Origin: a virus
IMG/VR virus record: IMGVR_UViG_3300018080_000071
Coordinates: 1 to 37,484 of that record
DNA length: 37,484 bases
Reading direction: 5' to 3' (one strand)
Under the pieces are notes generated by a model that saw only the letters and a program-made list of their open reading frames with translations, ran no database searches and was not told the DNA's origin. This document shows, one piece after another, positions 766 through 34,266 of the stretch (positions are counted from its first letter, which is position 1; every line of letters begins with the position of its first letter). Made by a program: the position numbers and the translations under genes.

Positions 766-797
766 ATCCATACCTCCCGACATAATTATTTTAATGG

Positions 798-825: not shown

Positions 826-841
826 GATAAAAATAGCCTAT

Positions 842-874: not shown

Positions 875-920
875 TGTTGTTAAGAATCTCAATATGCCAT
901 GTTCTAATGACATAAATATA

Positions 921-1124: not shown

Positions 1125-1136
1125 AATGCCTCCTTT

Positions 1137-1322
1137 TTATAAAACTCCGATATAGGACAATTTCAAGTCCTTATGAAATTTTAAGAACCCTGCGCCGCTT
1201 AAAATACAAGAATAATTATCAAGCAGAACCTTATAGAGCCGAAGGTCATAATACCTAACTGTATCCACCAATAGCAATTCATCTGATTTTTTAGAATAAA
1301 ATACATCCATAAAAGATATCAT
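1137..1322 (-). CDS. Small hypothetical early protein
   Basis: 61 aa from ATG 1322, which has GGAG 9 bases upstream. A TTG start at 1337 would give 66 aa but has no ribosome binding site. There is no recognisable domain. It sits between a zinc-ribbon gene and a ribbon-helix-helix gene in the early operon with short gaps, so it is probably translated as part of that unit. Confidence 0.6.
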   Translation of the reverse strand: MISFMDVFYSKKSDELLLVDTVRYYDLRLYKVLLDNYSCILSGAGFLKFHKDLKLSYIGVL

Positions 1323-1349
1323 AACACTTGGCTCCAAGATTAAAAGTTT

Positions 1350-1544
1350 TTATTCATCATCAATGATTCTGAAACCTTTACCACAATCAATGAAATTAGG
1401 GATTCTTGCGACATATTTCTCATCACAGCCACCATTTTCACCCTCACAAAAAAAGACCCTATAGTCTTCTGATGCAAGATCATCTTCTGATAAATACTCA
1501 TAGTTGACAATGTCACAGTTTGGGCATTTTACTTTTATCCTCAT
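1350..1544 (-). CDS. Small zinc-ribbon-like protein
   Basis: 64 aa. CPNC near residues 8-11 and a second pair in CEGENGGC (about 33-40) make a plausible four-cysteine zinc site. The rest is acidic. AGGAG lies just upstream of the ATG. No specific family is recognised; such ribbons in small phage proteins often bind nucleic acid or a host protein, which here is inference only. Confidence 0.65.
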   Translation of the reverse strand: MRIKVKCPNCDIVNYEYLSEDDLASEDYRVFFCEGENGGCDEKYVARIPNFIDCGKGFRIIDDE

Positions 1545-1553
1545 ATTCCTCTC

Positions 1554-1766
1554 CTATTTTAGACCAGCTGCATATATATCATCAGCCAACCTACCGATAA
1601 CATCAGAAACCCCCATGGCTTCTAAGTATTCTTTGTATATGATATCAGCTTGCATAGCGATATCCATTGCTGCTGACTCCCAATCGAACCCATCGGATTC
1701 AATCTCTTGAGCAGCCCCTTTGAATTCTGATAAAAATTTCTCATATCTTTTTTTAGACTCAACCAT
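1554..1766 (-). CDS. Small hypothetical early protein
   Basis: 70 aa from ATG 1766, chosen because AGGAGG lies 4 bases upstream. A longer frame reaching 1820 overlaps the upstream gene and has no comparable site. It is acidic and mostly helical by composition (MVESKKRYEKFLSEFKGAAQ...). No domain is recognised. It follows a 118-aa hypothetical gene in the operon from the 2.2 kb promoter. Confidence 0.65.
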   Translation of the reverse strand: MVESKKRYEKFLSEFKGAAQEIESDGFDWESAAMDIAMQADIIYKEYLEAMGVSDVIGRLADDIYAAGLK

Positions 1767-1780
1767 AATACCTCCTTTGA

Positions 1781-2137
1781 TTAACAAGCAGCCCATCCAA
1801 AAAACACAAAGGCTCTGCATCTTTTTCCAACGAAACCCTCACGTTTTCTCATAGCTTTTTTCACTTTTCCTTCTTTGAACTCAATACAACCACACATTCC
1901 TCTTTTGGATAAACCAAACTTCTCATCAGATACGCTCTCTTCTATAAATTTTTGGATGCCCTTTGCACTCTTTGGAGCCAAAGATGTCAAATCTTTGACC
2001 CCACTAGTCGTTGATATCGTCCCATTATATGGGTCAGCCCCATATTGCTCAATGGCTTCTACTACAGCTTGTCTATATGCTTCTTCAATAGTCTTAAAAT
2101 CTCCGATTACAGTAACATAAAAATCTGTTGCTCCCAT
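1781..2137 (-). CDS. Conserved-looking phage hypothetical protein
   Basis: 118 aa. The N-terminal half reads like a small alpha/beta domain (strand FYVTVIGDF, helix with EEAYRQAVVEAIEQYG), followed by the turn-rich DPYNGTISTTSGVKDL, a pattern I associate with phage hypotheticals of unknown function. The C-terminus is basic and ends FVFFGWAAC. AGGAGG lies 6 bases upstream of the ATG. It is the first gene after the 2.2 kb promoter and so likely the most expressed of that set. Confidence 0.7.
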   Translation of the reverse strand: MGATDFYVTVIGDFKTIEEAYRQAVVEAIEQYGADPYNGTISTTSGVKDLTSLAPKSAKGIQKFIEESVSDEKFGLSKRGMCGCIEFKEGKVKKAMRKREGFVGKRCRAFVFFGWAAC

Positions 2138-2179
2138 TTAAGCCTCCTTCTTAGGGTTTTTTATCTGCCCTATATATAT

Positions 2180-2208
2180 ACCCTAACATAATGGCATATA
2201 TAAGTCAA
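2180..2208 (-). promoter_or_regulatory. Repeated early promoter, copy A
   Basis: On the minus strand TTGACT (2208-2203), a 17-base spacer and TAGGGT (2185-2180). The surrounding block of about 60 bases, from CTATATAT upstream to TATATAGGGCAG downstream, is nearly the same as copies B and C. The -10 is the poorest of the three, so this copy may be weak or need activation. It serves the genes from 2137 down to 921. Confidence 0.7.
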
Positions 2209-2251
2209 GCTCTTTTTCTATATATCTGAAATAAAATCAAAGTCTTAGAGC

Positions 2252-2626
2252 TTACTTCTTTTCTTGTCTATACGTTTCACCTTGGATGCTTTTTAAAGTA
2301 GATTCTTCAATAAAAAAGAATCTGTGTTTGTCTAGGTCAATGTTAAATATCTGTTTGGCTACCTCAAGCTTAAAAGCAACCATATATCCAGTTCTAAAAG
2401 GATTCTGACTACCTTCCTCACCATCCTTCACTTCAATTAGTATCACGCCCTCTTCCATGATTTTCTTACATTTATCACAGGGTTCATGATTCATTACTGC
2501 TTGTCTCGGGGCTTCTTCATCATTTCTCATGCGTCCGAATAGCATAACACTCTTGGACTCTCCACAAATAAAGCAGAGCTCAACAGATGGGTTCAAACCA
2601 TGCTTCTCACTTAATCTAATATTCAT
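2252..2626 (-). CDS. Zinc-binding conserved phage protein
   Basis: 124 aa. Two Cys pairs (CFICG near 18-22 and CDKC near 50-53), separated by a stretch with DEEAPRQAV, resemble a small conserved phage protein of unknown function that I have seen start with MNIRLSEKHGLNPS-like sequence. TAAGGAGG precedes the ATG. It ends the operon started by promoter B. A structural zinc site is likely; an enzymatic role is not evident. Confidence 0.7.
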   Translation of the reverse strand: MNIRLSEKHGLNPSVELCFICGESKSVMLFGRMRNDEEAPRQAVMNHEPCDKCKKIMEEGVILIEVKDGEEGSQNPFRTGYMVAFKLEVAKQIFNIDLDKHRFFFIEESTLKSIQGETYRQEKK

Positions 2627-2636
2627 AAAAACCTCC

Positions 2637-2846
2637 TTACTTGTTTGATTCTGAATCTGTCATTGAGCCATCACTCAAAGAGTTCTCAAAGGTGTCATCT
2701 TCATCAATTTCATATCTAGTACCAACTATCACGTTGTGTCCTTTGTAATGTTTCAAATGGACTCTGGCTGCGCTCTCAGCGAATAAGCCATTCTCGCAAG
2801 CCTCAAGTTCCTTACCACAGGTTACACAGTATGCTCTCCAAATCAT
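2637..2846 (-). CDS. Small single CxxC protein
   Basis: 69 aa from ATG 2846 (AAGGAGG 5 bases upstream). A longer frame to 2945 overlaps the neighbouring gene and has no such site. The start MIWRAYCVTCGKELEAC carries a CxxCGK zinc-knuckle half and a third Cys. The centre has ARVHLKHYKGHNV with His residues that could complete the site, and the C-terminal 25 residues are acidic. Function unknown. Confidence 0.65.
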   Translation of the reverse strand: MIWRAYCVTCGKELEACENGLFAESAARVHLKHYKGHNVIVGTRYEIDEDDTFENSLSDGSMTDSESNK

Positions 2847-2856
2847 AAAAACCTCC

Positions 2857-3153
2857 TTATAATGGGTAGCCATCATTGCCATTTGGGTCATAGTCATTAT
2901 CATATGGGTCTTCTTGGTCTTCGGGGTCACAGTCTCCAATCTCATATCTCATCCACTCATCAAAGGTATAGACATCTACTTTTGACTCTTGACCATAAAA
3001 CTCTTTCAAGAACTTCTTAGCCTCATCAATAGAGTCTTTGATATAGTCCTCGTCATGGACACCATCGTCAACATTGAACTCTACCTCACCTTGAAAACCA
3101 TAGTCTCCGACATCTGGATCTCCATACGCCACTATTACAAATTTCTGAATCAT
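2857..3153 (-). CDS. Acidic hypothetical early protein
   Basis: 98 aa from ATG 3153 (GGGGAGG upstream); the frame extends to 3177 without a site. It is very acidic, with a C-terminal tail rich in Asp, Pro and Asn (DCDPEDQEDPYDNDYDPNG). Strongly acidic small phage proteins include DNA mimics, but nothing specific identifies it as one. Its start overlaps the stop of the upstream 59-aa gene (ATGA). Confidence 0.65.
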   Translation of the reverse strand: MIQKFVIVAYGDPDVGDYGFQGEVEFNVDDGVHDEDYIKDSIDEAKKFLKEFYGQESKVDVYTFDEWMRYEIGDCDPEDQEDPYDNDYDPNGNDGYPL

Positions 3154-3329
3154 GCGCCCTCCCCTCTTATAGTCCATTCACATTTTAGTTCATAAAGGTT
3201 CTCATACTTTAGCATCTCACCCCATTTATGTTCGACTACAACTAAACCATTATCCTCGGGGTCTAAATCAATATGCCCTTCTTCTCCACCCATCTTAAAA
3301 ACCAAAAGCCCAATGAGTTTTTCATACAT
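3150..3329 (-). CDS. Small hypothetical early protein (59 aa)
   Basis: The frame starts MYEKLIGLLVFKMGGEEGHI and ends ...CEWTIRGEGA. AGGAGG lies 5 bases upstream of the ATG, and the TGA stop overlaps the next start as ATGA. No domain is recognised. It fills what would otherwise be an unexplained gap in the operon, which supports it being a real gene. Confidence 0.65.
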   Translation of the reverse strand: MYEKLIGLLVFKMGGEEGHIDLDPEDNGLVVVEHKWGEMLKYENLYELKCEWTIRGEGA

Positions 3330-3344
3330 AAAAGCCTCCTATAC

Positions 3345-3626
3345 TTAAAAATTTGTTCTATGGTTACTGACTCTACCACCCCAACCTAAAGCTTCTAAAA
3401 AGCTCTCAAGCTGGCAAAGCTGCTCATATTTTCTATCATAGCTCGCTGACCCACAAGCTTCAGCCACCCTAGTATGCCAAAAACCTAATTCAAAATTTTC
3501 AAAGTCTCTAATGAATCCCTCAATGGTTCCATCAGAATCTTCAAAAATCTCTTTTATTTCAGCTTTTACCTTCGCTGATTTAACATGTTTTTTTAAAGCC
3601 TCAGAAATTTGTTTTTTTGCTTCCAT
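3345..3626 (-). CDS. Hypothetical early protein
   Basis: 93 aa from ATG 3626, preceded by AAAAGGAG; the frame extends to 3668 into the promoter and is not believed there. The lysine-rich N-terminal half (MEAKKQISEALKKHVKSAKV...) is helical. The C-terminal half contains ...WHTRVAEACGSASYDRKYEQ and a Gly-rich end. First gene behind promoter B. No family recognised. Confidence 0.65.
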   Translation of the reverse strand: MEAKKQISEALKKHVKSAKVKAEIKEIFEDSDGTIEGFIRDFENFELGFWHTRVAEACGSASYDRKYEQLCQLESFLEALGWGGRVSNHRTNF

Positions 3627-3658
3627 AGGTTTCTCCTTTTTTTCTGCCCTATATATAC

Positions 3659-3687
3659 AATATAACATAATGACATATATAAGTCAA
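3659..3687 (-). promoter_or_regulatory. Repeated early promoter, copy B
   Basis: TTGACT (3687-3682), 17-base spacer, TATATT (3664-3659; 5 of 6 matches) on the minus strand. Best of the three near-identical copies. The shared spacer TATATATG..ATTATG and shared flanks imply common regulation. It drives the genes from 3626 to 2252. Confidence 0.8.
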
Positions 3688-3744
3688 GCTCTTTCTATAT
3701 ATAGATGAATTTTTTTTTATTTTTTATTGAGGGGTGAGGACAAT

Positions 3745-3759
3745 GACTTACAAGAAGTC
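3745..3759. promoter_or_regulatory. 15-bp inverted repeat upstream of promoter B
   Basis: GACTT-ACAAG-AAGTC, followed by AAG. A near-identical sequence lies the same way upstream of promoter C. The 5-bp arms are too short for a convincing terminator; an operator or activator site is possible. Confidence 0.4.
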
Positions 3760-3774
3760 AAGTCCTTTTTTAAA

Positions 3775-4164
3775 TTATTTGGAAATTTTATCTCTTAATT
3801 CTGCTGCCTTTTCAAAGATGCCCTTAGGTATCAAAAAGTCTAAACCAGCCTCACTGCATTCTTCATATGCGTTTATCAACTTTTGAACAGCCTTAAATTC
3901 ATTTACAGCTACTAACAACTCTCTATCTTTTGGTTCATTTACAACTTCAAACATGTTTTTGAAAAAGTTAATAAGCTTAACGTCTACTGTCTGTCCAGTT
4001 CTTAAAACAACTCTAACCCAATCTTCATTTTCAGGGTTCTCAAAAACTTCACCCTCAGTTCCTATATCAAAGCCACACTCACCATATTTTGTTTTTACTA
4101 TTGAGCCAACTTTACTTTTAAGTTCAGCCTTTTTTAAAACTAGGTTTGCCTTATTGTCTTTCAT
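3775..4164 (-). CDS. Hypothetical early protein with possible KOW/SH3-like segment
   Basis: 129 aa. Residues about 18-60 (VGSIVKTKYGECGFDIGTEG, then WVRVVLRTGQTVDV) look like a small beta-barrel with a Gly-rich turn of the kind seen in KOW/SH3-like domains. The C-terminal 60 residues are helical. AAAGGAGG precedes the ATG. It has its own promoter (copy C) and is the only gene between it and promoter B. Function unknown; the beta-barrel reading is inference. Confidence 0.65.
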   Translation of the reverse strand: MKDNKANLVLKKAELKSKVGSIVKTKYGECGFDIGTEGEVFENPENEDWVRVVLRTGQTVDVKLINFFKNMFEVVNEPKDRELLVAVNEFKAVQKLINAYEECSEAGLDFLIPKGIFEKAAELRDKISK

Positions 4165-4210
4165 ACAGCCTCCTTTAGGGTTTTTTGTTTTTTTTCTGCC
4201 CTATATATAT

Positions 4211-4239
4211 ATACTAGCATAATAGCATATATAAGTCAA
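4211..4239 (-). promoter_or_regulatory. Repeated early promoter, copy C
   Basis: TTGACT (4239-4234), 17-base spacer, TAGTAT (4216-4211; 4 of 6 matches) on the minus strand, followed by TATATATATAGGGCAG as in copies A and B. Drives the gene starting at 4164. Confidence 0.75.
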
Positions 4240-4286
4240 GCTTTTTTTATATATAGACGAACTTTTTTTGATATGGAGGAACAAAG

Positions 4287-4300
4287 ACTTACAAGAAGTC
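4287..4300. promoter_or_regulatory. Inverted repeat upstream of promoter C
   Basis: Second copy of the GACTT-ACAAG-AAGTC element followed by AAG, about 60 bases upstream of the -35 of promoter C. It lies just behind the stop of the second ParB-like gene. Confidence 0.4.
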
Positions 4301-4320
4301 AAGCTCTTTTTAAAGAAAAA

Positions 4321-4827
4321 TTACTGTTTTTTTGGTTCCCATGCTTTTGAGTATTTATGATTCTGAATGTCTTTTCTTTTGAAGACACCATCGGCATACA
4401 GGAGGTCTACCTCACCCTTGTAAGCCCCGATTTCTTGAGCTATCTTTTGTTTGTCAACATTGTGCTTGTCGACTAAAGTTTTTATGATCTCACTCATCCT
4501 GAAAGCAAGGTGAGATCCTTTGGCTCTATTTATTCTTATGGTCAACAGCATTGCATCAGCGTCCGAAATAGGCAATACCACAACTGGAATCTTGCCATTG
4601 TACTTGGCTTTTAATTGAGCCGAGGACTGTGATACCTTCCATCTGTGAAAGCCATCTATTATGATGTTACTACCATTGATTATGATAGGCTGAATCCACC
4701 CATTTTTTAAAATGCTGAATTCTAAGAGCTTCAACTCCTGATTCATACATACATTAGGATTGTAGTTATTCGCATCCAGCTTTGAAGAGTCAATCCATTC
4801 TACATTATTTATAGGGTCTTTTTCCAT
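4321..4827 (-). CDS. ParB/sulfiredoxin-fold protein, short (IbrB-like)
   Basis: 168 aa from ATG 4827 (GTAGGAG 4 bases upstream). Residues 16-65 carry the ParB-N pattern: N-Y-N-P-N, then a helix LKLLEFSILKNGWIQPIII, a strand, and IIIDGFHRW, which replaces the classical GERR/GHGR box. The C-terminal part (RINRAKGSHLAFRMSEIIKT, then a helix-turn-helix-like segment KQKIAQEIGAYKGEVDLL) is typical of small ParB-like proteins. In E. coli, IbrB is a small ParB-like protein encoded with IbrA, a PAPS-reductase-like protein; a PAPS-reductase-like gene lies three genes upstream here. It closes the cassette. Nuclease activity is not implied by the fold. Confidence 0.75.
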   Translation of the reverse strand: MEKDPINNVEWIDSSKLDANNYNPNVCMNQELKLLEFSILKNGWIQPIIINGSNIIIDGFHRWKVSQSSAQLKAKYNGKIPVVVLPISDADAMLLTIRINRAKGSHLAFRMSEIIKTLVDKHNVDKQKIAQEIGAYKGEVDLLYADGVFKRKDIQNHKYSKAWEPKKQ

Positions 4828-4835
4828 TTTTTCTC

Positions 4836-5180
4836 CTACCAAGGTTTTATGACACCATGCTCTCTAGCTAGAATACCAAAGTCATGTCTCCAAACAGGAG
4901 GGTACTTGACCCCCTCTTTTATCTCATTAAAATAGGCTTCAACTTTTTCTTTAGCAAAATGTTTTGAGTGCAACATCATGTGACACCTCCAGCACAGCCC
5001 CTTCAAAAATTTAGTAGGGTGCGAATAGTCAGTATTATGCCATTGTTTGATACCCTCTTCTTGCCCACATTCGCAACACCTTGCTGGAACCGCAGGAATT
5101 TCACCCCTAGCAATAGCCGCCTTAGTTTTTTTCAAAGATGCCATACGTTCTTCTTTTGTCCAGCCATTCCAAGTCCTCAT
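4836..5180 (-). CDS. HNH-like zinc endonuclease or zinc-binding protein
   Basis: 114 aa from ATG 5180, which overlaps the upstream stop as TAATG and has GGGGGTG before it; the frame extends to 5252 without a site. After a basic N-terminal helix (TKEERMASLKKTKAAIARGE) come CCECG (35-39), WHNTDYSHP (47-54), LCWRCH (62-67) and HSKH (71-74). This is the treble-clef layout of HNH-type proteins: two Cys pairs and His/Asn/Asp between them. The expected use is metal-dependent DNA cleavage, but an accessory zinc role in the cassette is equally possible. Confidence 0.65.
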   Translation of the reverse strand: MRTWNGWTKEERMASLKKTKAAIARGEIPAVPARCCECGQEEGIKQWHNTDYSHPTKFLKGLCWRCHMMLHSKHFAKEKVEAYFNEIKEGVKYPPVWRHDFGILAREHGVIKPW

Positions 5181-5566
5181 TACACCCCCCTTTTTACGAA
5201 TGCTATACCATTTTTTTCCCATATCTTGGTAAAACCATTCTTTAAATACCAAAAAACATTTATCTTAGTTGTAGCATAAGCTGTGATACAACTACAATGT
5301 TTTTCTTTTAAAAAATCAAAAACTAAGTTATTTAATGCTGTTGAGATGCGCCGCCCACGATACTCTGGTAAAACATAAAACCCCTTCATTCTACCTACGT
5401 TTCCTCGAAGTATAGCGCACCCACCGACTGCGACCATTTGCTCCCCATCAAAAGCCGCAAACCAAAAGTGATCCTTACCATCACTCAAGACAACTCTCTC
5501 CCTTTTGGCTGCATTGTTCAACCAAAAGATATCAGAATGCTCAACTTGCTTATATTCTATTTTCAT
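5180..5566 (-). CDS. GNAT-family acyltransferase
   Basis: 128 aa. The GNAT core is clear: strand WFAAFDGEQMVAVGGCAIL, strand GRMKGFYVLPEY followed by the acyl-CoA loop RGRRIS (residues 70-75, Q/RxxGxG/A variant), helix ALNNLVFDFLKEKH, then strand ITAYAT and WYLKNGFTKI (the late motif of the fold). Start ATG overlaps the upstream stop (ATGA) and the end overlaps the next start (TAATG), so it is translated with its neighbours. GNAT folds include N-acetyltransferases and the Mu Mom base-modification protein; which of these applies cannot be told from the sequence alone. Confidence 0.85.
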   Translation of the reverse strand: MKIEYKQVEHSDIFWLNNAAKRERVVLSDGKDHFWFAAFDGEQMVAVGGCAILRGNVGRMKGFYVLPEYRGRRISTALNNLVFDFLKEKHCSCITAYATTKINVFWYLKNGFTKIWEKNGIAFVKRGV

Positions 5567-6648
5567 TTCTTACCCTTTACATCTGGCAAGAAAGCCCTTT
5601 TGACAACTCCACCCTTGAAAAGTTTTAGACAATATTCGAAGCTGTATTTGGGTGCTATCTTTGGATTTTTCTGATAGGAGACACATTCTCTATATCTTGC
5701 CATTGCATGTTTGAGTTGGTCTCCCTCAAACTTATTTGCTATCCAGAATCTTAGGTCTATCCAATCCTTCGGGTCTTCCTGCTCATTTGAGAACTTATCG
5801 AATTGTTTACCATATTTATCTTGTACTCCCATTTCCGGAAATACTTTAAGTACCCTATCGTAAAACTCTGCGTCTAATGTCCTCCACTTGTCAAGAGACT
5901 TAGCACTCTCAGCATGTAATGGAGTTGACACCCTTAGAGCTTGGTTCTGTGCAGATTGTCTATCATAGATTTCAGCATAAGGTATCCCTTCATCATAGAA
6001 GAACTTAAAGACATCATTTTCTTCCCAATCGTATATAGGTCTACCTATGCGAACACCTTTGGCACTTGAAGCGCAGACATATGCCTCATTTATGACGTTC
6101 AATACAGCTTTTAATCTAATTATGGACTCGCTGCATCTGATTCCAGTCATGATACAAACTTTACCCTTGTATTCTGCTGCGACTCTTGCGTCCATATTGT
6201 ATTGGTCATATATTTTTGAATCATCAGATATGCTCCAGGATGGCTTCTCCCTAACATAATTTTCTCTATTTGGATCCCATTGTATATAGTCAAAAGTCTT
6301 ACCCAATATATACTTTTGGCTTTTTAATGGAACAGTAAACCAAGTCATGTTTACCCAAGGAAGGCATCTATAGTAATCAACGAAGTCCACTATATGATCT
6401 GGTATAAGCTCCTCATCCCTAAATACTACATTGACGGGGGTTTTATCCCCTAATTCCTCTTTGACTATCCTAGTCAAATGAAGTAGAGCTAGACTATCTT
6501 TACCTCCAGAAAATGATACAACGAAATTGTCATGGGTCTGCATTATTCTTTTTAGCCGCCACTTAGCCGCCTCAAGGACATTCATGTTGCCCATTGGTTG
6601 GGTAGTATTCGCTAGTGTTTTTTTGCCAACTATTTTTACTTGAGCCAT
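5563..6648 (-). CDS. PAPS-reductase-family ATP pyrophosphatase (IbrA/DndC-like)
   Basis: 361 aa. The PP-loop VSFSGGKDSLALLH sits at residues 44-57, preceded by a helix. Later come VNVVFRDEELIPD (substrate strand), MTGIRCSESIIRLKAV (the G-x-R-x-x-E-S-x-x-R signature shared with IbrA-type and related phage enzymes) and IGRPIYDWEENDVFKFFYDE followed by IPYAEIYD, characteristic of PAPS reductases. I see no C-terminal catalytic ECG motif of assimilatory reductases, so adenylation or thiolation chemistry is more likely than sulfate assimilation. Start shares TAATG with the ParB-like gene upstream. The ParB-PAPSR pairing is the core of this cassette. Confidence 0.88.
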   Translation of the reverse strand: MAQVKIVGKKTLANTTQPMGNMNVLEAAKWRLKRIMQTHDNFVVSFSGGKDSLALLHLTRIVKEELGDKTPVNVVFRDEELIPDHIVDFVDYYRCLPWVNMTWFTVPLKSQKYILGKTFDYIQWDPNRENYVREKPSWSISDDSKIYDQYNMDARVAAEYKGKVCIMTGIRCSESIIRLKAVLNVINEAYVCASSAKGVRIGRPIYDWEENDVFKFFYDEGIPYAEIYDRQSAQNQALRVSTPLHAESAKSLDKWRTLDAEFYDRVLKVFPEMGVQDKYGKQFDKFSNEQEDPKDWIDLRFWIANKFEGDQLKHAMARYRECVSYQKNPKIAPKYSFEYCLKLFKGGVVKRAFLPDVKGKK

Positions 6649-7313
6649 TAGATTTTACTCAAATCGACATTTTCTTGAATAAATGAGCAGATTCTTTCAC
6701 TTATAGTCTCGGCTTCTGGCTGCTCTAACTTTAGCTTGGTCAAAAACTTAAACCATATTTCCTGTTCCTCGAGGTTTGAAAAAAGTAGCTGGTATGTAAT
6801 GTTGAAATTCTTTATTGTCACGCCGCTATCACCATCAGATAATGTACCATCCCCTTCATTTTCGTGCTCACTAGGTTCTTCTTCGCCCAAGATATCCGAA
6901 CCCCCAAGTACAGCTGCAATCTCAATCTCGTCCATTCCTGTGACATTCAGGTTATAGTCAAGAGAGTGCAACTCTTCCATTTCAAGTCTAAGATTATTAG
7001 TATCCCATCCAGCGTTAAGAGCTATCTTGTTATCTGCTATGCCAAAGGCTTTTCGCTGTGCTGGAGTAAGCTTGTCATTAAGGATAGTTGGCACTTTTTT
7101 TAGTTTGAGTCTCTTGGCTGCCCTTAAACGACCATGACCAGCCCAAACGACATTCTCGTCATCAATTTGTATAGGGTTGTTAAAGCCAAACTCTTTTATT
7201 GAATTGCAGATTTCATCAATCTGTGCATCAGAGTGAGTCCTTGTATTTCTAGGGTTCTCGATTAGGTCTTCAACCTTTTTTAACTCGATATTTTTAACAA
7301 TGTTTATGTCCAT
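6648..7313 (-). CDS. ParB-like nuclease-domain protein
   Basis: 221 aa. ParB-N domain at residues 10-90: VEDLIENPRNTRTHSDAQID, helix ICNSIKEFGFNNPIQI, then VVWAGHGRLRAAKRL (the GHGR box, 59-62) and VPTIL. It is followed by ALNAGWDTNNLRLEMEEL, which in phages usually links ParB-N to an adenine methylase domain. No methylase follows here; instead there is an acidic linker (SEHENEGDGTLSDGDSG) and a short C-terminal alpha/beta segment (about 166-221). It is the first gene of the cassette, with its own good promoter at 7337-7365. Confidence 0.85.
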   Translation of the reverse strand: MDINIVKNIELKKVEDLIENPRNTRTHSDAQIDEICNSIKEFGFNNPIQIDDENVVWAGHGRLRAAKRLKLKKVPTILNDKLTPAQRKAFGIADNKIALNAGWDTNNLRLEMEELHSLDYNLNVTGMDEIEIAAVLGGSDILGEEEPSEHENEGDGTLSDGDSGVTIKNFNITYQLLFSNLEEQEIWFKFLTKLKLEQPEAETISERICSFIQENVDLSKI

Positions 7314-7336
7314 ATTCTCTCCTTTGGTTAGAATAT

Positions 7337-7365
7337 ATCATAAACATGCCTTATAATTATGTCAA
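7337..7365 (-). promoter_or_regulatory. Promoter of the ParB/PAPS-reductase cassette
   Basis: TTGACA (7365-7360), 17-base spacer, TATGAT (7342-7337; 5 of 6 matches) on the minus strand, about 25 bases upstream of the ParB-like start. It gives the cassette expression independent of the ERF gene. Confidence 0.8.
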
Positions 7366-7368
7366 GTG

Positions 7369-8073
7369 CTATTGTCTAACGGATTGCAGAGCCTCGTTAT
7401 AACTAAACTTTATTATGTCTAGGATCAAAAGATTCCTTTGCTCAGAAGTTAGAAGCCTTGGATTCTCATTGCCATATTTCTCTTTTGAAAACTCAGCGAC
7501 TTGCGCTTTAGTCCACCCCTTTGACTTCATCTTAGCCCCAAGCTCTTTGATCTCTTTATCAACAGCAGTCAAAGTCTTAGACTTTGCTTTAGGGGCTGGA
7601 GGCTTTACCTTAGAAGACTTAGGTAAAGGGGTTGGGGGAGCATCTTCTTCGGGGTCTTTGATGTCAGCGGTAACCAATAGGAACTGCTGGGCAAACAAAA
7701 ACTTCAAGCCTCCAGTTTTTGCTTTGAATATGTCCTTATCCAAAGTATCTGCTGCTACAGTATAAAACTCTGTAGAATGTTTATCTTCTGGATTGTCTAT
7801 ATTGACATATGTTGCTCTAGCTTTAAGCCTACTCTGAAAATTACTACCATGTTTTTCTCTCTCATGGCTTATTTCCTCTATAGACAATACTATTCCAAAT
7901 TCAATAAACATTTTCTGTATATGATTAAAAACATCAACAGCCCTCACATAATTGTATTTAGAATAACTGTTGTAGCCCTCTTTTGGTATTTTTGGGCAGT
8001 TCTCCATGACTCTATGTAGACGCTGGTAAATGTTCAAATCACATAATTCTTTCTTGCTTTTTTTATCACTCAT
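7369..8073 (-). CDS. erf: ERF-family single-strand DNA annealing protein
   Basis: 234 aa. The ERF domain covers residues 12-140: NIYQRLHRVMENCPKIPKEG, YSKYNYVRAVDVFNHIQKMF, a beta region, then the hallmark FYTVAADTLDKDIFKAKTGG followed by LKFLFAQQFLL. A Pro/Lys-rich linker (PPTPLPKSSKVKPPAPKAKS) leads to a small C-terminal helical domain. ERF proteins anneal single strands and serve recombination-dependent phage replication. No partner exonuclease or SSB is evident, so those functions are presumably from the host. First gene of the early region, with a promoter that overlaps an opposing promoter. Confidence 0.88.
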   Translation of the reverse strand: MSDKKSKKELCDLNIYQRLHRVMENCPKIPKEGYNSYSKYNYVRAVDVFNHIQKMFIEFGIVLSIEEISHEREKHGSNFQSRLKARATYVNIDNPEDKHSTEFYTVAADTLDKDIFKAKTGGLKFLFAQQFLLVTADIKDPEEDAPPTPLPKSSKVKPPAPKAKSKTLTAVDKEIKELGAKMKSKGWTKAQVAEFSKEKYGNENPRLLTSEQRNLLILDIIKFSYNEALQSVRQ

Positions 8074-8084
8074 TTTTTTACCCC

Positions 8085-8113
8085 TTGACTATTTTATGTT
8101 TCACATTTATAGT
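8085..8113 (+). promoter_or_regulatory. Opposing promoter for the membrane/secreted pair
   Basis: TTGACT (8085-8090), 17-base spacer, TATAGT (8108-8113). The expected transcription start (about 7 bases on) falls on the A of ATG 8120, so the first mRNA would be leaderless. Confidence 0.75.
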
Positions 8114-8134
8114 TTGAGTATGGAAGAAAGTCAA
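8106..8134 (-). promoter_or_regulatory. Early promoter for the ERF gene
   Basis: TTGACT (8134-8129), 17-base spacer, TATAAA (8111-8106; 5 of 6 matches) on the minus strand, about 33 bases upstream of the ERF start. Its -10 overlaps the -10 of an opposing plus-strand promoter, so the two cannot be occupied together. Confidence 0.8.
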
Positions 8135-8251
8135 GCAAAAAAAAATGTTTTTTTAGACATGTTTATCGCTATGGGCATGTTTTTACTACCCTTTTTATGG
8201 GTGATTTTTACTGCGACTATCCTTTTATGGATTGGGAGGGGTCATGTTTAA
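8120..8251 (+). CDS. Tiny single-span membrane protein (43 aa)
   Basis: MEESQAKK..., then one hydrophobic segment at about 11-37 (FLDMFIAMGMFLLPFLWVIF and on) and a short positively charged end. An upstream in-frame ATG at 8030 lies in the ERF gene and before the promoter, so ATG 8120 is preferred. It is followed with an 8-base overlap by a secreted-protein gene. A holin, antiholin, spanin-related or superinfection-exclusion role are all conceivable; the position apart from the endolysin and the early-type promoter do not decide. Confidence 0.65.
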   Translation: MEESQAKKNVFLDMFIAMGMFLLPFLWVIFTATILLWIGRGHV

Positions 8252-8459
8252 ATACTTTATATTCGCATTTATGCTTTTATCGTTTAGTAGTGCCGCTGTT
8301 CCAGACACTAAGAATCTTTTGAGAAAAACAATTTTACTAAAAAGACAATATCAGGACTTGAACAGGTATCTAAAAAAACAATTGAAGATAAATGAGAGGG
8401 TTCTTCTTATTTTATCAGTTTATGAAAAATCATTGAGAAAAAGTATTGACAGGAAATGA
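8244..8459 (+). CDS. Small secreted helical protein
   Basis: 71 aa from ATG 8244 (GGGAGGGG upstream). Signal peptide MFKYFIFAFMLLSFSSAA with likely cleavage after SSA (about residue 16). The mature part of about 53 aa is basic and coiled-coil-like (LLRKTILLKRQYQDLNRYLK...). The periplasmic charged helix fits a spanin-like or inhibitor peptide but shows no diagnostic motif. Co-transcribed with the 43-aa membrane protein; the pair is bounded by a hairpin at 8515-8536. Confidence 0.7.
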   Translation: MFKYFIFAFMLLSFSSAAVPDTKNLLRKTILLKRQYQDLNRYLKKQLKINERVLLILSVYEKSLRKSIDRK

Positions 8460-8514
8460 CCAATGTGAGACAAAAAAAGAGACACAACCTTACTTTTTTG
8501 AACGCTTTAAGTTA

Positions 8515-8536
8515 AGGGCTCCTTATTGGGAGCCCT
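8515..8536. terminator. Hairpin between convergent genes
   Basis: 8-bp stem AGGGCTCC/GGAGCCCT with a 6-base loop, followed on the plus strand by TAATTTATT. The T tract is imperfect, so termination is likely but not strong. It lies between the plus-strand pair and a convergent minus-strand gene and overlaps the latter's stop. Confidence 0.55.
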
Positions 8537-8690
8537 AATTTATTCTATCTAATGTTGTAAGTGATCCAGATTTATATTCGAAAGAATCAATAATACTCCA
8601 CATGTAGTTTATCATGCCCTCTTCTTCTCCAATGGTGAATGCTGATGTGAAAGTTTTTCCACACCTTGACTCCCAAGAAAAAATATACAC
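8535..8690 (-). CDS. Possible small gene with GTG start (51 aa)
   Basis: Frame VYIFSWESRCGKTFTSAFTI...LTTLDRIN, started by GTG 8690 with TGAGGT 5 bases upstream, directly after the endolysin stop. It fills the space between endolysin and hairpin. No domain is recognised. A real but unrecognised gene is more likely than chance because position, site and frame agree, but no independent support exists. Confidence 0.5.
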   Translation of the reverse strand: MYIFSWESRCGKTFTSAFTIGEEEGMINYMWSIIDSFEYKSGSLTTLDRIN

Positions 8691-8698
8691 AGGATACC

Positions 8699-9400
8699 TC
8701 AAATTAAATCCTTTATGACTTCATATACTGCGTCTCCAATATCTTTTTTCAGCTTATCGAGATTTATCATCTGTTTTTCATCATCTTTTCTTGAGATATT
8801 TAATAATGAAATCAAAGCGTTGCATAGAGCTTTTGGGTAAAGGTCACTATTACTTGTCTCGAAAAGTTTTCTTGAGTCGGCAGTCTCTTTATTACAAAAG
8901 GCTGGCTCAAAAAGGAAGACATGCTTGGCTACGTTGCTGTCAGCCATTGCCCTTAGACAGACAGCTCCCCTTTGGTTTCTTGATATCCTACTGATGCCAT
9001 CTGTGGGGAGGTTGAAATCAGCCCAAAGGACATTTCTACGTTCCTTAATGTCCAATTCTTGGCTTATAAAGTCTGTAAAGCGGTCAACAAATTTGACTGT
9101 TTCTTCTTTTGAATCACTCAACAGCAATGCCTCCATACCAAAGGCTGGCTTGTAAAAAGAATTAAAATGCAATTCAATAGAGACATCAAAGAACATCTTT
9201 GGATACTTCTCTGTTATATTGCTATAGTCGTGTCCATTCTTTGTGAAAGCATAGACTTCACAATCATACTCACCAAGCCTCAAAAAGACTTCTTCTGCTA
9301 CAAATTTTCCATATTTGAACTCTGATATCCCATTGTAAGAAATAGCTCCCTGTTCTTTTTCATCATGTGGTACTATAAGACATATTTTAGGTCTTGACAT
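8699..9400 (-). CDS. Endolysin, N-acetylmuramoyl-L-alanine amidase (Amidase_3-like)
   Basis: 233 aa. Zinc-site residues fit the Amidase_3 fold: H12 in VPHDEKEQGA (the usual GHGG is replaced), E36/E37 in the first helix (KFVAEEV), H78 in ELHFNS, and catalytic E165 in FLFEPAF. The family cleaves the amide between N-acetylmuramate and L-alanine in peptidoglycan. The catalytic domain covers about 1-200; the C-terminal helix (DKLKKDIGDAVYEVIKDL) is amphipathic. There is no signal peptide, so a holin is needed for release. AAAGGAG precedes the ATG. Membrane protein and lipoprotein genes lie just upstream in the same operon, forming a lysis module. Confidence 0.85.
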   Translation of the reverse strand: MSRPKICLIVPHDEKEQGAISYNGISEFKYGKFVAEEVFLRLGEYDCEVYAFTKNGHDYSNITEKYPKMFFDVSIELHFNSFYKPAFGMEALLLSDSKEETVKFVDRFTDFISQELDIKERRNVLWADFNLPTDGISRISRNQRGAVCLRAMADSNVAKHVFLFEPAFCNKETADSRKLFETSNSDLYPKALCNALISLLNISRKDDEKQMINLDKLKKDIGDAVYEVIKDLI

Positions 9401-9456
9401 TGTAATAACTCCTTTGTATCATTTATTTAAGCAAGTAATCACTCATATTTCATATC

Positions 9457-9486
9457 GGGGTAGGTAAAACTACCCCACTTTTTTTT
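9457..9486 (+). terminator. Hairpin with T-run on the plus strand
   Basis: GGGGTAG (9457-9463) pairs with CTACCCC (9470-9476), followed by AC and eight T. It would end plus-strand transcription, although the flanking genes are on the minus strand. It may block antisense read-through from the 8.1 kb promoter's opposite side or act as an mRNA-stabilising hairpin for minus transcripts. Confidence 0.6.
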
Positions 9487-9887
9487 CAATCTACTTGACT
9501 TGTCTTCCAAGTTTTTAATGTAAACAGCCAAAGAACCTTATTGTCCTCCCATACTCGGCATGAATTCTGTAAGTCATTGATATGCTCAAACACCATGAGC
9601 AGGTCATCATCAGATATCAATACATACTTTTGCCCAAGTGAGATATTGTCATCCCCTTGCTTACATTTCATGTAAAAACATTCGTAATATTTATCTTGTT
9701 CTGGATAAGAGTCCAAAAAGAAGCACTCTTGACCATTGTGCTCGTAGTCAGAAGGTACATTCCTACATGATATGTTACCTTCTGCCCTTGGTCTGAAAAG
9801 TTTTGGTGATTTCTCTAACTTCGGGTGCTCTCCCCCAGTTCCACAAGACAACATGAATAACATAATTGTACTAATTAGATAGATCAT
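9486..9887 (-). CDS. Putative outer-membrane lipoprotein (o-spanin candidate)
   Basis: 133 aa from ATG 9887 (AGGA 8 bases upstream); ATG 9896 is possible. The N-terminus MIYLISTIMLFMLSC is a lipoprotein signal with a loose lipobox ending at Cys15. The mature part has about six more Cys, suggesting disulfides, and is longer than typical o-spanins. Its start overlaps the end of the upstream small membrane-type gene in another frame, the arrangement of Rz/Rz1 pairs. It lies next to the endolysin. The spanin role is inference; a lipoprotein excluding superinfection is the main alternative. Confidence 0.65.
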   Translation of the reverse strand: MIYLISTIMLFMLSCGTGGEHPKLEKSPKLFRPRAEGNISCRNVPSDYEHNGQECFFLDSYPEQDKYYECFYMKCKQGDDNISLGQKYVLISDDDLLMVFEHINDLQNSCRVWEDNKVLWLFTLKTWKTSQVD

Positions 9888-10092
9888 CTGCCACATCCTG
9901 CATATCGTCCAACTTACCCATAGGGTCTTGGTTCTTTTTAGCCTTGTCAATTTTTTTCTGTATAGCCTTTTTTCTTTTATTTCTTTGGTACGAATTCCAC
10001 CATTCAACTATCTTAGTGAAAGTGAATTTTAGTAACGTACTAAAAAAGAGTTGGGCAGCAGGCTTTATCGCTGCCCAAATTGAGCTCCACAT
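9871..10092 (-). CDS. Small membrane-anchored lysis protein (i-spanin or holin candidate)
   Basis: 73 aa. The N-terminal 30 residues (MWSSIWAAIKPAAQLFFSTL...) form a Trp-rich amphipathic or transmembrane helix. A very basic stretch (RNKRKKAIQKKIDKAKK, about 38-54) and an acidic tail (DDMQDVADDLSN) follow. The ATG overlaps the stop of the preceding gene (TAATG). Overlap with a lipoprotein gene suits an i-spanin, although it is short for one. The helix near the N-terminus with a charged C-terminus also suits a small class of holin. Confidence 0.6.
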   Translation of the reverse strand: MWSSIWAAIKPAAQLFFSTLLKFTFTKIVEWWNSYQRNKRKKAIQKKIDKAKKNQDPMGKLDDMQDVADDLSN

Positions 10093-10253
10093 TAGAGTAG
10101 GTCTTTTATCTTGGCTAGAGCTTCATCAATTAGTTCAGAACCAACTACGACCAATTTGATTGATGGCTCACCATCCTTATTGGTGTCAAGTGTAACCTCG
10201 ACATTGCCGTCTACGATTTTAGCATCAAAAACTTTTTTTTCTTCTTCTGACAT
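10092..10253 (-). CDS. Small hypothetical protein (53 aa)
   Basis: MSEEEKKVFDAKIVDGNVEV, then a beta-type stretch and an acidic helix ending KIKDLL. AAGGAG lies 6 bases upstream of the ATG; the stop overlaps the next start (TAATG). It is the first gene of the minus-strand lysis group, divergent from the plus-strand island at 10.35 kb. No family recognised. Confidence 0.65.
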   Translation of the reverse strand: MSEEEKKVFDAKIVDGNVEVTLDTNKDGEPSIKLVVVGSELIDEALAKIKDLL

Positions 10254-10303
10254 ATTTACTCCTTTTTGGTTTGTGTGATACTAATATGATAGCAGAATTA
10301 TAT

Positions 10304-10332
10304 TTGCATACAAGCAGAATTTCAACTATTAT
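10304..10332 (+). promoter_or_regulatory. Candidate promoter of the plus-strand virion-protein island
   Basis: TTGCAT (10304-10309), 17-base spacer, TATTAT (10327-10332; 5 of 6). It stands 23 bases before the ATG at 10355. Confidence 0.5.
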
Positions 10333-10354
10333 GGAGAAAACAATAGGAGGATTT

Positions 10355-10834
10355 ATGAGATTTTTTATTTTTATCATGTTTTTTGTATCAATTCTACAGG
10401 CTGTAACATATTCGAATACTCAAGTTCAGAACAAGGTATATTTTCAGACAAGTCCTGTATCACTCGTGTCTAGTGCTCAAGATTTAACAGCATCATGGGC
10501 AAGCGCAGGAGCTCAATTTGACTGTTCGGGAGCTAAAGAAATCGCAGCATGGGTTAACCTTGATATCAATGACTCAACTAATGCTAGAATAAGGCTTCTT
10601 GGCTATCAAACTACAGGTGGAGCTAGTTATCTAATGCCAATATCTACCATTTCTGCATCCGATGTGAAAGTAGAAGATCAATATGTTGAATTCAATAGTG
10701 ATACCGACCAAAAACAGATAGTTGGCTTTACTATAGATAGACTCATACCATATTGTAGATTTGAAGTTGTCGCTGGATCAGTAGGAACAACAGCTGGTCA
10801 AATTGACTCTTTAGACTACACGCTAGGGAGGTAA
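10355..10834 (+). CDS. Secreted virion-like beta protein
   Basis: 159 aa from ATG 10355 (AGGAGG 4 bases upstream); a frame start at 10271 lies before the promoter. A clear signal peptide MRFFIFIMFFVSILQA precedes a beta-rich mature part (SAQDLTASWASAGAQFDCSG, then LGYQTTGGASYLMP...) with two Cys (one in FDCSG, one in PYCRF). The mature sequence resembles small accessory virion proteins with a jelly-roll fold, which usually lack signal peptides. The next gene begins 1 base after its stop. Whether it ends up in the virion or in the periplasm/outer membrane is open. Confidence 0.7.
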   Translation: MRFFIFIMFFVSILQAVTYSNTQVQNKVYFQTSPVSLVSSAQDLTASWASAGAQFDCSGAKEIAAWVNLDINDSTNARIRLLGYQTTGGASYLMPISTISASDVKVEDQYVEFNSDTDQKQIVGFTIDRLIPYCRFEVVAGSVGTTAGQIDSLDYTLGR

Positions 10835-10835
10835 C

Positions 10836-11405
10836 ATGTTAGGATCAAAAGCCCATGAGAAGCCAGCAACGCTTATTCGTGGAGAAGATGTCGTTTGGGA
10901 CGATCTTAGATTCCCTGTTAGTAATGTCAGAATAACAGGTACTAATCCTGCTTCATGGGAAGTGTTTAATGGATTCCAAGTCCTAGGTTTTGAGGCTCAA
11001 GCAGTAAATGATGAACAAATTTATTTTTTAGCTCAACTGCCTCATAGCTACAAACATGGTTCAAATATCAAATTTCACGTTCATTGGTCACCAGAAACAG
11101 ACGATAATGCTACTGTTAGATGGGGGTTAGAATATGTTTGGGCTAATATAAATGATTCCTTGAGTGCCTCATCCACTACTGTTTACAAGGATGTGAACAT
11201 AGAGAATAATGGTGGAGACCACTTAATAACTACAATAGCAGAAATAGATGGTTCTAATAAAACCCTATCCTCAATGCTATTATGTAGACTTTTTAGAAAT
11301 TCATCACATGCCAATGACAACTTTGACGATATAGCGTACTTGTTTGAAGCAGATTTTCATTTTCAAATAGACCAACTAGGCTCTCGACAAGAGTTTATCA
11401 AGTAG
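10836..11405 (+). CDS. Phage structural protein with conserved HVHW motif
   Basis: 189 aa. It contains LPHSYKHGSNIKFHVHWSPE, WGLEYVWANIND, a central SSMLLCRLFRN and the terminal FEADFHFQIDQLGSRQEF. This combination is one I recognise from conserved phage structural proteins of unknown detailed role (often near fibres). No signal peptide, unlike both flanking genes. GGGAGG lies before the ATG. A strong terminator follows at 11411-11437. A receptor-binding or capsid/tail decoration role is plausible. Confidence 0.75.
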   Translation: MLGSKAHEKPATLIRGEDVVWDDLRFPVSNVRITGTNPASWEVFNGFQVLGFEAQAVNDEQIYFLAQLPHSYKHGSNIKFHVHWSPETDDNATVRWGLEYVWANINDSLSASSTTVYKDVNIENNGGDHLITTIAEIDGSNKTLSSMLLCRLFRNSSHANDNFDDIAYLFEADFHFQIDQLGSRQEFIK

Positions 11406-11410
11406 GTTTT

Positions 11411-11437
11411 AGGGGGGTATGTACCCCCCTTTTTTTT
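11411..11437 (+). terminator. Rho-independent terminator
   Basis: GGGGGG pairs with CCCCCC around a TATGTA centre, followed by a run of eight or more T, immediately after the HVHW protein gene. The next gene begins 23 bases later, so it receives only read-through or has a promoter I did not identify. Confidence 0.9.
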
Positions 11438-11459
11438 AATTTTAAAAAAGAGGTAAAAA

Positions 11460-11993
11460 ATGAAATTAACAATGGTGTTATTCTTGTGGGCTAGTGTATT
11501 GCTAGCTTTTGGCAGTTCTAGTAGTGTATCTATGAGCTTCAATGACCATAATATACATGCTGGAAAACATTTTTTCTATCACTCTAACCAAGATGTGACA
11601 GATGCAGATACAATCGTTCGATTCTTATTCGTGACACCATCCGAAAGAGATATTCACGCTAGGTTTTCAATTGAAGCAGAAGATGAATTCATAATTGAAC
11701 TGTATGAGGGTGCAACCACATCAAACAATGGCACTCCTATCACTATTTACAATAACAATAGAAACTCAACAGAAACCGCAACAGTTCTAGGGTTTTCGGC
11801 TCCTACTGTATCTAATGATGGTACGCTTATATGGAAGGGAGTTGTCAACTCAGGGAAAAAGACTTCTCTTGAAAGGCACTTTAACTATGAATTGGTTGCA
11901 AAGAACTCAACAAAGTATATGTTCAAGATAACAAAAACAGCAGCAGGAACCCATTTCATAGAGCCCGACTTCTACTTCTTCGAGCACCCTTAG
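11460..11993 (+). CDS. Secreted virion-like protein
   Basis: 177 aa with signal peptide MKLTMVLFLWASVLLAFG and likely cleavage near SSS. The mature part has ...HNIHAGKHFFYHSN, FVTPSERDIHARFSIE, LYEGATTSNNGTPI, NNNRNSTETA and ...IEPDFYFFEHP, a set of motifs I know from a widespread phage protein family (usually without signal peptide) near tail fibres. AAGAGG precedes the ATG. Its stop abuts the stop of the convergent minus-strand gene with no gap. Transport to the periplasm or cell surface would be unusual for a virion part. Confidence 0.75.
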   Translation: MKLTMVLFLWASVLLAFGSSSSVSMSFNDHNIHAGKHFFYHSNQDVTDADTIVRFLFVTPSERDIHARFSIEAEDEFIIELYEGATTSNNGTPITIYNNNRNSTETATVLGFSAPTVSNDGTLIWKGVVNSGKKTSLERHFNYELVAKNSTKYMFKITKTAAGTHFIEPDFYFFEHP

Positions 11994-12236
11994 TTATTTT
12001 AAAGCATACTCGACCATTAAGTCCATATGACCATTGAACTCGTCCATAAGTAATTTGACGAAGCGTTCACCTGTATGACCATTTTTTATAAACCAAGGCA
12101 GAGCCTCCCTGCCTCTAGGTAGGTTATATAAAACGCATAATGGCTTTGATAAACCGGGGCGACCATCCATTATCTCTAGTAGCATCATGCGCTCAAGTGG
12201 AGACATTTTCTTTTTTTCTGCCATAATGATACTCAT
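11994..12236 (-). CDS. Small hypothetical protein
   Basis: 80 aa; the start overlaps the upstream O-antigen-ligase-like stop (ATGA) with GGGGGAG 5 bases before. Basic N-terminus, then ...SPLERMMLLEIMDGRPGLSK, which could be helix-rich. An inverted repeat GATAC-TCATT-GTATC (12228-12242) lies over the start. No family recognised; the coupling suggests it works with or is regulated with the membrane protein before it. Confidence 0.6.
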   Translation of the reverse strand: MSIIMAEKKKMSPLERMMLLEIMDGRPGLSKPLCVLYNLPRGREALPWFIKNGHTGERFVKLLMDEFNGHMDLMVEYALK

Positions 12237-13372
12237 TGTATCTCCCCCTTTTTTTCAAAAGTTTGTCCTATTAACCATACCCCAAAGAAAGCATGTATAG
12301 GATAGTGAAAAGGATAGTCGAAGGTCATCCCACCGCAAAAAGCCGCTGTCGCAGACAATAAAATAAATCTTCTGTTTTTGAGTTGTCTAAAAAGTATAGC
12401 TACGCATAGGTATATTGTTAGAACTACACCGATATACCCTTGCTCAAGTAGTATTTGTAGCCAATCATTGTGCATGAATATCATCTTGGCATTGCCATCC
12501 CATCCGAAATATTTATATGTATCTTGGATTATTATGCCAAAGACTTTAAAAGTGCCAGTTCCGAACCCTATGAAGTGATTAAGGGGTCTTGTCATGAAAT
12601 AGTCATATGAATGTTTCCAATATCTGAATCTATAAGAATCGTAAAAAAGGTTCTCATCATACAATGATGCAAATAAGAAAATCAAAAAGAACGATACGAT
12701 TGAAATTATGACAGTTTTTTTAGAGCCAAGCCCCTTTGCTACCCCAAATACTAGAATACTCAAAGCTATACAACCTACTGGAACAGAAGTCTTTGAAAGA
12801 ATAATAGCGACTATTGGTATCGGAGCAAGGATTAGTTGTATAGCCCTCTCCTTTTTAAAAATACCATAGCTCTGAAAAACTAAAAATGGGTAGGTCATTG
12901 CAATGAACACTCCATTTATAGAGCCATTGATAAACATACCCCCCCTAAACAAGAATTCATTGCCATTGAGAAATTGAGCTATCACATATATGGAGTTAGC
13001 CAAGCACAGGAAGCCCCATATCGGCTCCAGTCTGTACGCTTTTTTATGTATGCTATGGTATCCAATGAGCAGAAGTGAAGCTATGAGCGTTGCATACGCA
13101 GCGTTCTCCCTTATTGCACCCCCAACATTAGACGGGAAGTGAAAATACATGTTGCCTACCCAACCAGATGTGTATAAACCAGATATAAGAACCCATGCCG
13201 ACATCAAGCCAGCACTAAGGTGATACTCTTTAGATATCTTATAGCAGAAATTTACAATAAGTAGTGACCCAAAAAAAACATAATGAGTCCACCAAGCATC
13301 AGGTGAGGTGAATATACTTTGGATTTTTAAAAAACAAGTGACAATCAGCCCAACAGAAAAGAAGTAAAACAT
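12233..13372 (-). CDS. O-antigen ligase/polymerase-like membrane protein (Wzy_C/WaaL superfamily)
   Basis: 379 aa with about ten hydrophobic segments. The large periplasmic loop carries YRFRYWKHSYDYFMTRP (R248, W252), HFIGFGTGTFKV (about 266-277) and MHNDWLQILLEQGYIG (H301), the pattern of O-antigen ligases and Wzy-type polymerases. The family transfers or polymerises lipid-linked glycans in the periplasm. AGGAG precedes the ATG. It overlaps the preceding small membrane protein by 28 bases and lies between tail-fibre genes and a fibre-like island. In phages such a gene would alter host surface glycans (serotype conversion, exclusion of other phages). The family call is good; the substrate is unknown. 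Confidence 0.82.
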   Translation of the reverse strand: MFYFFSVGLIVTCFLKIQSIFTSPDAWWTHYVFFGSLLIVNFCYKISKEYHLSAGLMSAWVLISGLYTSGWVGNMYFHFPSNVGGAIRENAAYATLIASLLLIGYHSIHKKAYRLEPIWGFLCLANSIYVIAQFLNGNEFLFRGGMFINGSINGVFIAMTYPFLVFQSYGIFKKERAIQLILAPIPIVAIILSKTSVPVGCIALSILVFGVAKGLGSKKTVIISIVSFFLIFLFASLYDENLFYDSYRFRYWKHSYDYFMTRPLNHFIGFGTGTFKVFGIIIQDTYKYFGWDGNAKMIFMHNDWLQILLEQGYIGVVLTIYLCVAILFRQLKNRRFILLSATAAFCGGMTFDYPFHYPIHAFFGVWLIGQTFEKKGEIQ

Positions 13373-13611
13373 GAAAGCTCCTTAATTTTAGATAGTAGCA
13401 TCCTTAGTTCTCCCCCAAGTATCACACTAATTACAAGAGAAAACAAGAAAAAATACATCCAAAAAACGAGCTTGGTCAAAAAAGAGAGCCTTGCTTTTGT
13501 CTGCTCCTTCTCACAGATAGGTAGCCTCTCAAACTTTTCATCTATTGATTTTAGATGCTGTGTTATCAAGGCTATCGAAACCTTAAATGTACTCAAATCA
13601 TCATTACTCAT
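13345..13611 (-). CDS. Small protein with C-terminal membrane span (XhlA-like candidate)
   Basis: 88 aa. Residues 1-45 form a charged helix (LSTFKVSIALITQHLKSIDE...), then a hydrophobic segment at 46-66 (LVFWMYFFLFSLVISVILGG), then a short basic tail. This is the layout of XhlA-like phage membrane proteins, but also of other small tail-anchored proteins. It overlaps both neighbours (8 bases upstream, 28 bases downstream with the O-antigen-ligase-like gene). A holin-associated or ligase-associated role are equally possible. Confidence 0.6.
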   Translation of the reverse strand: MSNDDLSTFKVSIALITQHLKSIDEKFERLPICEKEQTKARLSFLTKLVFWMYFFLFSLVISVILGGELRMLLSKIKELSCFTSFLLG

Positions 13612-13762
13612 TCAGTAAGTCTGCCTCTATTTTAGACAAAACTGAGTCTTTATCCTCACCATTCAAAAAAAGGAATTTGTCAATCCGTTCGACTATCAAT
13701 GTCAACTTCTTGATTCTTTTGATTAGAATGTCTCTTTTTTCTCTAACTTCTTCTACTGTCAT
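13604..13762 (-). CDS. Small coiled-coil protein (52 aa)
   Basis: MTVEEVREKRDILIKRIKKL, then LTLIVERIDKFLFL and an acidic end. TAGGAG lies just upstream of the ATG and its stop overlaps the next start by 8 bases. Heptad-like hydrophobic spacing suggests a coiled coil. It sits directly behind the main tail-fibre gene; a role in fibre attachment or in the membrane group that follows cannot be separated. Confidence 0.6.
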   Translation of the reverse strand: MTVEEVREKRDILIKRIKKLTLIVERIDKFLFLNGEDKDSVLSKIEADLLNE

Positions 13763-13770
13763 TTTTTCTC

Positions 13771-15687: not shown

Positions 15688-15704
15688 AAAAAAACTCCTA
15701 TAAA

Positions 15705-34264: not shown

Positions 34265-34266
34265 AC

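Follow-up and report, generated by a model that had tools for sequence, protein, structure and literature searches.

Bidirectional promoters of bacteria, as characterized by Warman, Grainger and colleagues, are described in the available parts of their reports as divergent transcription start sites located 7-25 bp apart that share a -10 element, and 19% of the RNAs detected in E. coli are stated to arise at such promoters (PMC12825309; PMC10268837). Specifically, 24% of the E. coli bidirectional promoters sit between two divergent mRNAs, and the preferred separation of the two starts is 18 bp, with distances of 10 and 23 bp also preferred (PMC12825309). Positions -7 and -11, occupied by T and A, respectively, are the best conserved of the -10 element, the available text stating no strict requirement for either (PMC10268837). 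One polymerase sterically excludes the other at these promoters; in vitro, the basal activity of all five tested E. coli examples was too low for any mutual effect, and competition emerged upon improvement of one -35 element, bdcR being the only promoter without a response, or in the presence of an activator (PMC12825309).

Related arrangements have been described on a plasmid and in phages. The divergent promoters Pr and Pc of plasmid pLS20 have overlapping boxes, each -10 being thought to coincide with the -35 of the other, and in the part of the report available a genuine switch is made there by a regulator encoded at the junction together with DNA looping (PMC4207663). For phage rV5, bidirectional promoters between two genes have been predicted from sequence (PMC3606486). 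Among the literature matches listed, none was found by title to report an experimentally mapped bidirectional promoter in a tailed phage, though one may exist in print. The lambda promoters are not known to share a -10, and the cI mRNA initiated at PRM is leaderless, transcription starting on the A of its first ATG.

Architecture of the erf junction

The junction considered here belongs to a stretch of 37,484 bases and 38% G+C that comprises the entire virus record IMGVR_UViG_3300018080_000071 (the window) and in which head, portal, terminase, tape-measure and Erf-like genes are encoded. A gap of 46 bp lies between the leftward Erf-like gene, whose start codon is at 8073, and a rightward ATG at 8120, and two promoter-like sites on opposite strands occupy this junction (Table 1), the minus-strand site extending into the 8120 ORF. 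The -35 box of each site matches at five of six positions. The boxes, their 17-nt spacings and the four bases common to the two -10 elements are exactly as a preliminary description had given them.

Table 1. Positions of genes, promoter-like sites and associated features
Feature	Position	Strand	Details
Erf-like single-strand annealing protein (erf)	7369-8073	-	234 aa; phrog_155 3.5e-21; Pfam ERF 1.6e-10
Rightward promoter-like site, TTGACT-17-TATAGT	8085-8113	+	TTGACT 8085-8090, 17 nt, TATAGT 8108-8113 (direct reading and script check); predicted start 8120
Leftward promoter-like site, TTGACT-17-TATAAA	8134-8106	-	TTGACT 8134-8129, 17 nt, TATAAA 8111-8106 (direct reading and script check); predicted start 8099
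TATA common to both -10 boxes	8108-8111		own reverse complement (direct reading)
43-aa ORF	8120-8251	+	one hydrophobic stretch; no Shine-Dalgarno
71-aa ORF	8244-8459	+	N-terminus resembling a signal peptide; strong ribosome site GGGAGGGG
Terminator-like hairpin downstream of the rightward cassette	8515-8536	+	9 pairs, 6 of them G-C, then T-containing tail
Repressor-like ORF	921-1124		weak PHROG transcriptional repressor and regulator matches, 6e-4 and 8e-4
Second divergent junction	10253(-)/10355(+)		shared -10 at 10297-10304
TTGAAA-17-TATAAT	10325-10297	-	stronger site of the second junction
GTGATA-18-TATATT	10275-10304	+	shares TATA with the minus site
Third divergent junction	21571(-)/21677(+)		palindromic TTGCAA 21612-21617, usable as -35 both ways
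TTGCAA-16-TACTAT (rightward) and TTGCAA-16-TACAAT (leftward)	21590-21639	+ and -	each an extended -10 (TGA before)
NikA-like protein	21677-21859	+	Pfam 8e-10
TTGACA-17-TAGAAT	35995-36035	-	predicted start exactly on ATG 35995 of a 62-aa ORF without Shine-Dalgarno

When starts are placed seven bases past each -10, a rule applied to sequence only, those of the two sites lie 21 bp apart and diverge. The predicted separation falls within the 7-25 bp range of bacterial bidirectional promoters, and the boxes are disposed as in those promoters, with the common TATA contained in both hexamers and a -35 on either side; polymerase would likewise bind in one orientation at a time. Several differences are nonetheless apparent: 21 bp is not among the preferred distances, positions -7 and -11 do not coincide reciprocally here (the minus -7 is A), and the junction belongs to a phage, its starts being predicted. 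The likeness to rV5 lies in sigma70-type matches reading both ways between divergent phage genes, likewise recognized from sequence, the overlap of boxes not being stated in the available portion of the rV5 report. Together these features suggest that the junction is a bidirectional sigma70-type promoter, a reading that is somewhat favoured; the shared -10 arrangement is already known and common, and this locus is probably an ordinary case of it.

With a TATA core readable on both strands and TTGACT on each side, host RNA polymerase could melt this DNA in either of two orientations. Initiation to the left near 8099 would yield an erf mRNA carrying a predicted 26-nt leader and an AAGGGG ribosome site, while rightward initiation near 8120 would yield a short transcript that spans the 43-aa and 71-aa ORFs as far as the hairpin, its first ORF being translated leaderless. 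The assignments made in the preliminary description hold for both directions: the recombination gene addressed by the minus site is that of the Erf-like annealing protein, and the plus site is directed at the 43-aa and 71-aa ORFs, followed by a terminator-like hairpin. Exclusion of a second polymerase would be a physical consequence of the common -10, as had also been proposed; it would most likely be passive and weak, turning regulatory only if one side were strongly activated. The term "face-to-face", on the other hand, is misleading: because the predicted starts point apart, the transcripts would not collide, and only the polymerase footprints would face and overlap each other. The sequence, its geometry, the ranks of the sites and the gene context are established, and from them we infer promoter activity, start sites, leaderless translation and weak competition.

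Within the rightward cassette, the A of ATG 8120 is the predicted plus start of transcription. A clear Shine-Dalgarno sequence is present at many genes of the phage and absent at this ATG, and the 8120 ORF is a candidate for a leaderless mRNA. In this predicted start on the ATG it would be like lambda PRM/cI, but no repressor-like gene is found at 8120. At E 0.001 neither PHROG nor Pfam offers a family for the 43-aa ORF, a looser cut-off returning one match under the curated cut-off (PEN-2, E 0.011), and codon usage gives this ORF no coding support, given that 71% of stop-free 43-codon stretches score at least the same. Its end is overlapped by 8 nt by the start of the 71-aa ORF, for which no PHROG or Pfam family was found at E 0.001 and no relative was found in phages (tblastn) or in viral_contigs. 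The cassette is oriented against the prevailing gene direction, and it resembles, by our reading, a small autonomous cargo unit.

Strength of the two sites and possible transcription in one direction

The two sites differ in quality. The plus site, with 10 of 12 matches, passes a promoter scan, ranks 7th among 74,908 -10 positions by weight matrix and carries both T at -7 and A at -11, as expected; it is probably a promoter. In the same ranking, whose frequencies are general ones and may not match the sigma preference of the host, the minus site stands 20th of 74,908. Its -10 has the expected A at -11, but A rather than T at -7, on account of which it is absent from the promoter scan list. No other strong candidate appears on the minus strand between erf and 8200, the next best ranking 1093rd, and by weight matrix the plus and minus sites are the junction's only strong candidates. 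The minus site is thus likely to be a promoter as well, with less certainty for the erf direction because of the missing T at -7.

Under the strongest alternative, the rightward site alone would be functional and read-through from leftward genes upstream would account for erf transcription, the minus match consisting of the self-complementary TATA of the plus -10 and a chance TTGACT. Consistent with such a view are the missing T at -7, the failed scan and the finding that no minus-strand terminator-like site is listed between 8699 and 8074, such that read-through from 8699-9400 (-) would be possible. The minus site nevertheless retains its high rank 26 nt ahead of a good erf ribosome site, and a TTGACT at 17-nt spacing beside a TATA is not automatic. 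One-way transcription is a possibility to be taken seriously, albeit a doubtful one.

Chance pairing and the search for related junctions

A second alternative holds that both matches are non-functional as promoters, or that the phage relies on other signals in its host. Pair counts at strict thresholds, which exceed the chance level but were made after the fact, bear upon this view. Where both hexamers were required to match at least 5/6, two pairs with overlapping -10 elements were present in the window as compared to a mean of 0.083 in 60 dinucleotide shuffles of it, at least one pair occurring in 5/60; among sites scoring 9.4 or more by weight matrix there were again two pairs, against a mean of 0.066, with at least one in 19 of 318 shuffles. 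The second strict pair (18283-18333) is equally strong and lies inside a coding gene (17951-18769), demonstrating that such pairs can arise without an obvious role, and looser criteria (4/6 for each hexamer, 9/12 in all) gave no excess, with 12 pairs versus 9.1 +/- 3.4 in shuffles. Against a chance origin, the erf pair falls in intergenic DNA, which by the gene list makes up 12% of the window, and is placed precisely where a pair of divergent start codons calls for two promoters. With respect to single sites, the promoter scan of positions 1-18000 gave 62 versus 58.1 in shuffles, while 21 sites in the window reached the 9.4 score versus a shuffle mean of 11.9, which suggests that real promoters are probably among them. 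On balance, chance matching is an unlikely explanation of the junction.

Relatives were sought for both the gene and the junction. Searches with Erf returned two distant relatives in viral_contigs (30% and 26% identity), one in genome_contigs (27%) and, by tblastn, eight phage records, all below 60% identity; a search of 20 virus records matched two, identical to the two viral_contigs relatives, and in the stretch read neither of these has a divergent gene directly before erf. The nearest relative by head protein (L117, 47%) gave no Erf, amidase or PAPS-reductase match. The junction pattern was matched by one of 116 loci, namely the window itself (L001), and within these loci and the stretches read around erf in the two viral_contigs relatives, no other sequence was found to have this junction.

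Divergent junctions in related phages were surveyed with crude ORF calls in 113 sequences, comprising the window and the 112 loci L002-L113 and leaving out L114 onward. The survey yielded 21 junctions flanked on either side by a ribosome site; the window's own junction lies outside this set because its ORF is too short and has no ribosome site. Overlapping -10 pairs were observed at one of the 21 junctions at score 7 (0.35 in shuffles), four at score 6 (1.35) and six at score 5 (3.65). Two of the matches, L051 and L064, share coordinates and scores and probably represent one sequence type, and the excess of overlapping pairs at divergent junctions is suggestive only.

The proposed switch, and divergent junctions elsewhere in the phage

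The preliminary description had proposed a candidate mutual-exclusion switch; in such a switch, high occupancy in one direction would shut off the other and separate recombination from the membrane/secreted pair during infection. The common -10 does bar simultaneous occupancy, both sites carry 5/6 -35 boxes, "up" changes in the -35 cause competition at E. coli bidirectional promoters (PMC12825309), and overlapping divergent promoters are part of a real switch on pLS20 (PMC4207663). Yet the geometry is that of a known bidirectional promoter, and as the five E. coli cases described in the available text were too weak at basal level to compete (PMC12825309), a switch is not what one would assume by default. 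The pLS20 system, moreover, needs its junction-encoded regulator and looping (PMC4207663), none of which was found here, neither junction product resembling a regulator. A search of the junction gave neither feedback nor an activator or operator: erf is the first leftward gene, and for the rightward ORFs there is no family match at E 0.001, although small proteins of this kind could still regulate. The site holds no operator-like perfect repeat, its repeats including a 9-nt palindrome that lies within the 43-aa ORF, as well as A/T runs. A dyad formed by the two -35 boxes was considered as an operator and rejected, its 22-nt arms being only 73% complementary and attributable to the boxes and A/T tracts. 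A switch is very unlikely at this junction.

The same description referred to a genome without a recognisable repressor, a claim that is doubtful in light of the weak repressor-like match at 921-1124 and of the NikA-like protein, which we take to be of the ribbon-helix-helix type. If the site favoured above as a bidirectional promoter is active both ways, it would represent an instance of this promoter class in a phage, where compact divergent junctions are expected, and could serve to examine whether, in contrast to the weak E. coli cases, occupancy at phage promoters is high enough for the opposite directions to compete; otherwise it is a routine way of fitting two promoters into 46 bp.

Overlapping promoter-like elements also occur at the phage's two other divergent junctions. 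At the second, the predicted starts are separated by 21 bp, the same distance as at erf; at the third, the -10 arms ATTGTATCA/TGATACTAT form an inverted repeat, a possible site of self-regulation beside the NikA-like gene. Moderate overlapping pairs are common by chance (nine in the window at score 7 versus 5.2 expected), so these two junctions provide a lead only. That compressed divergent promoters are the general design of the phage at all three junctions, with a leaderless gene at 8120 and ribbon-helix-helix proteins tipping the direction between replication and small secreted or membrane cargo genes, is the least probable proposal of all, and highly speculative.

A second candidate leaderless mRNA is provided by the 62-aa ORF at 35995 (-). 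At two of the 21 top sites, the predicted start coincides with the ATG of an ORF 35 or more codons long, versus a mean of 0.16 at other offsets in this post hoc comparison.

Additional observations concern leftward genes and promoter-like elements elsewhere. PAPS-reductase-like and ParB-like genes lie side by side on the minus strand (5563-6648 and 6648-7313), which also carries a further ParB-like gene (4321-4842). Three near-identical promoter modules, GCTTGACTTATATATGNNATTATGNTA...TATATATAGGGCAGA, are present on the same strand at 2164-2220, 3643-3700 and 4195-4250, two of which are followed by AACCCTAA ahead of a strong ribosome site. Three occurrences of TATATATAGGGCAGA compare with 0.18 by chance, and the module, whose core pattern has no exact copy in viral_contigs, is probably a repeated leftward promoter of the phage with a regulatory leader and TTGACT as its -35. 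Finally, at 34039-34270, the window's top-scoring promoter-like site, TTGACA-17-TATACT on the plus strand, points into an intergenic stretch in which only a 23-aa ORF was found and which possibly encodes a small RNA.
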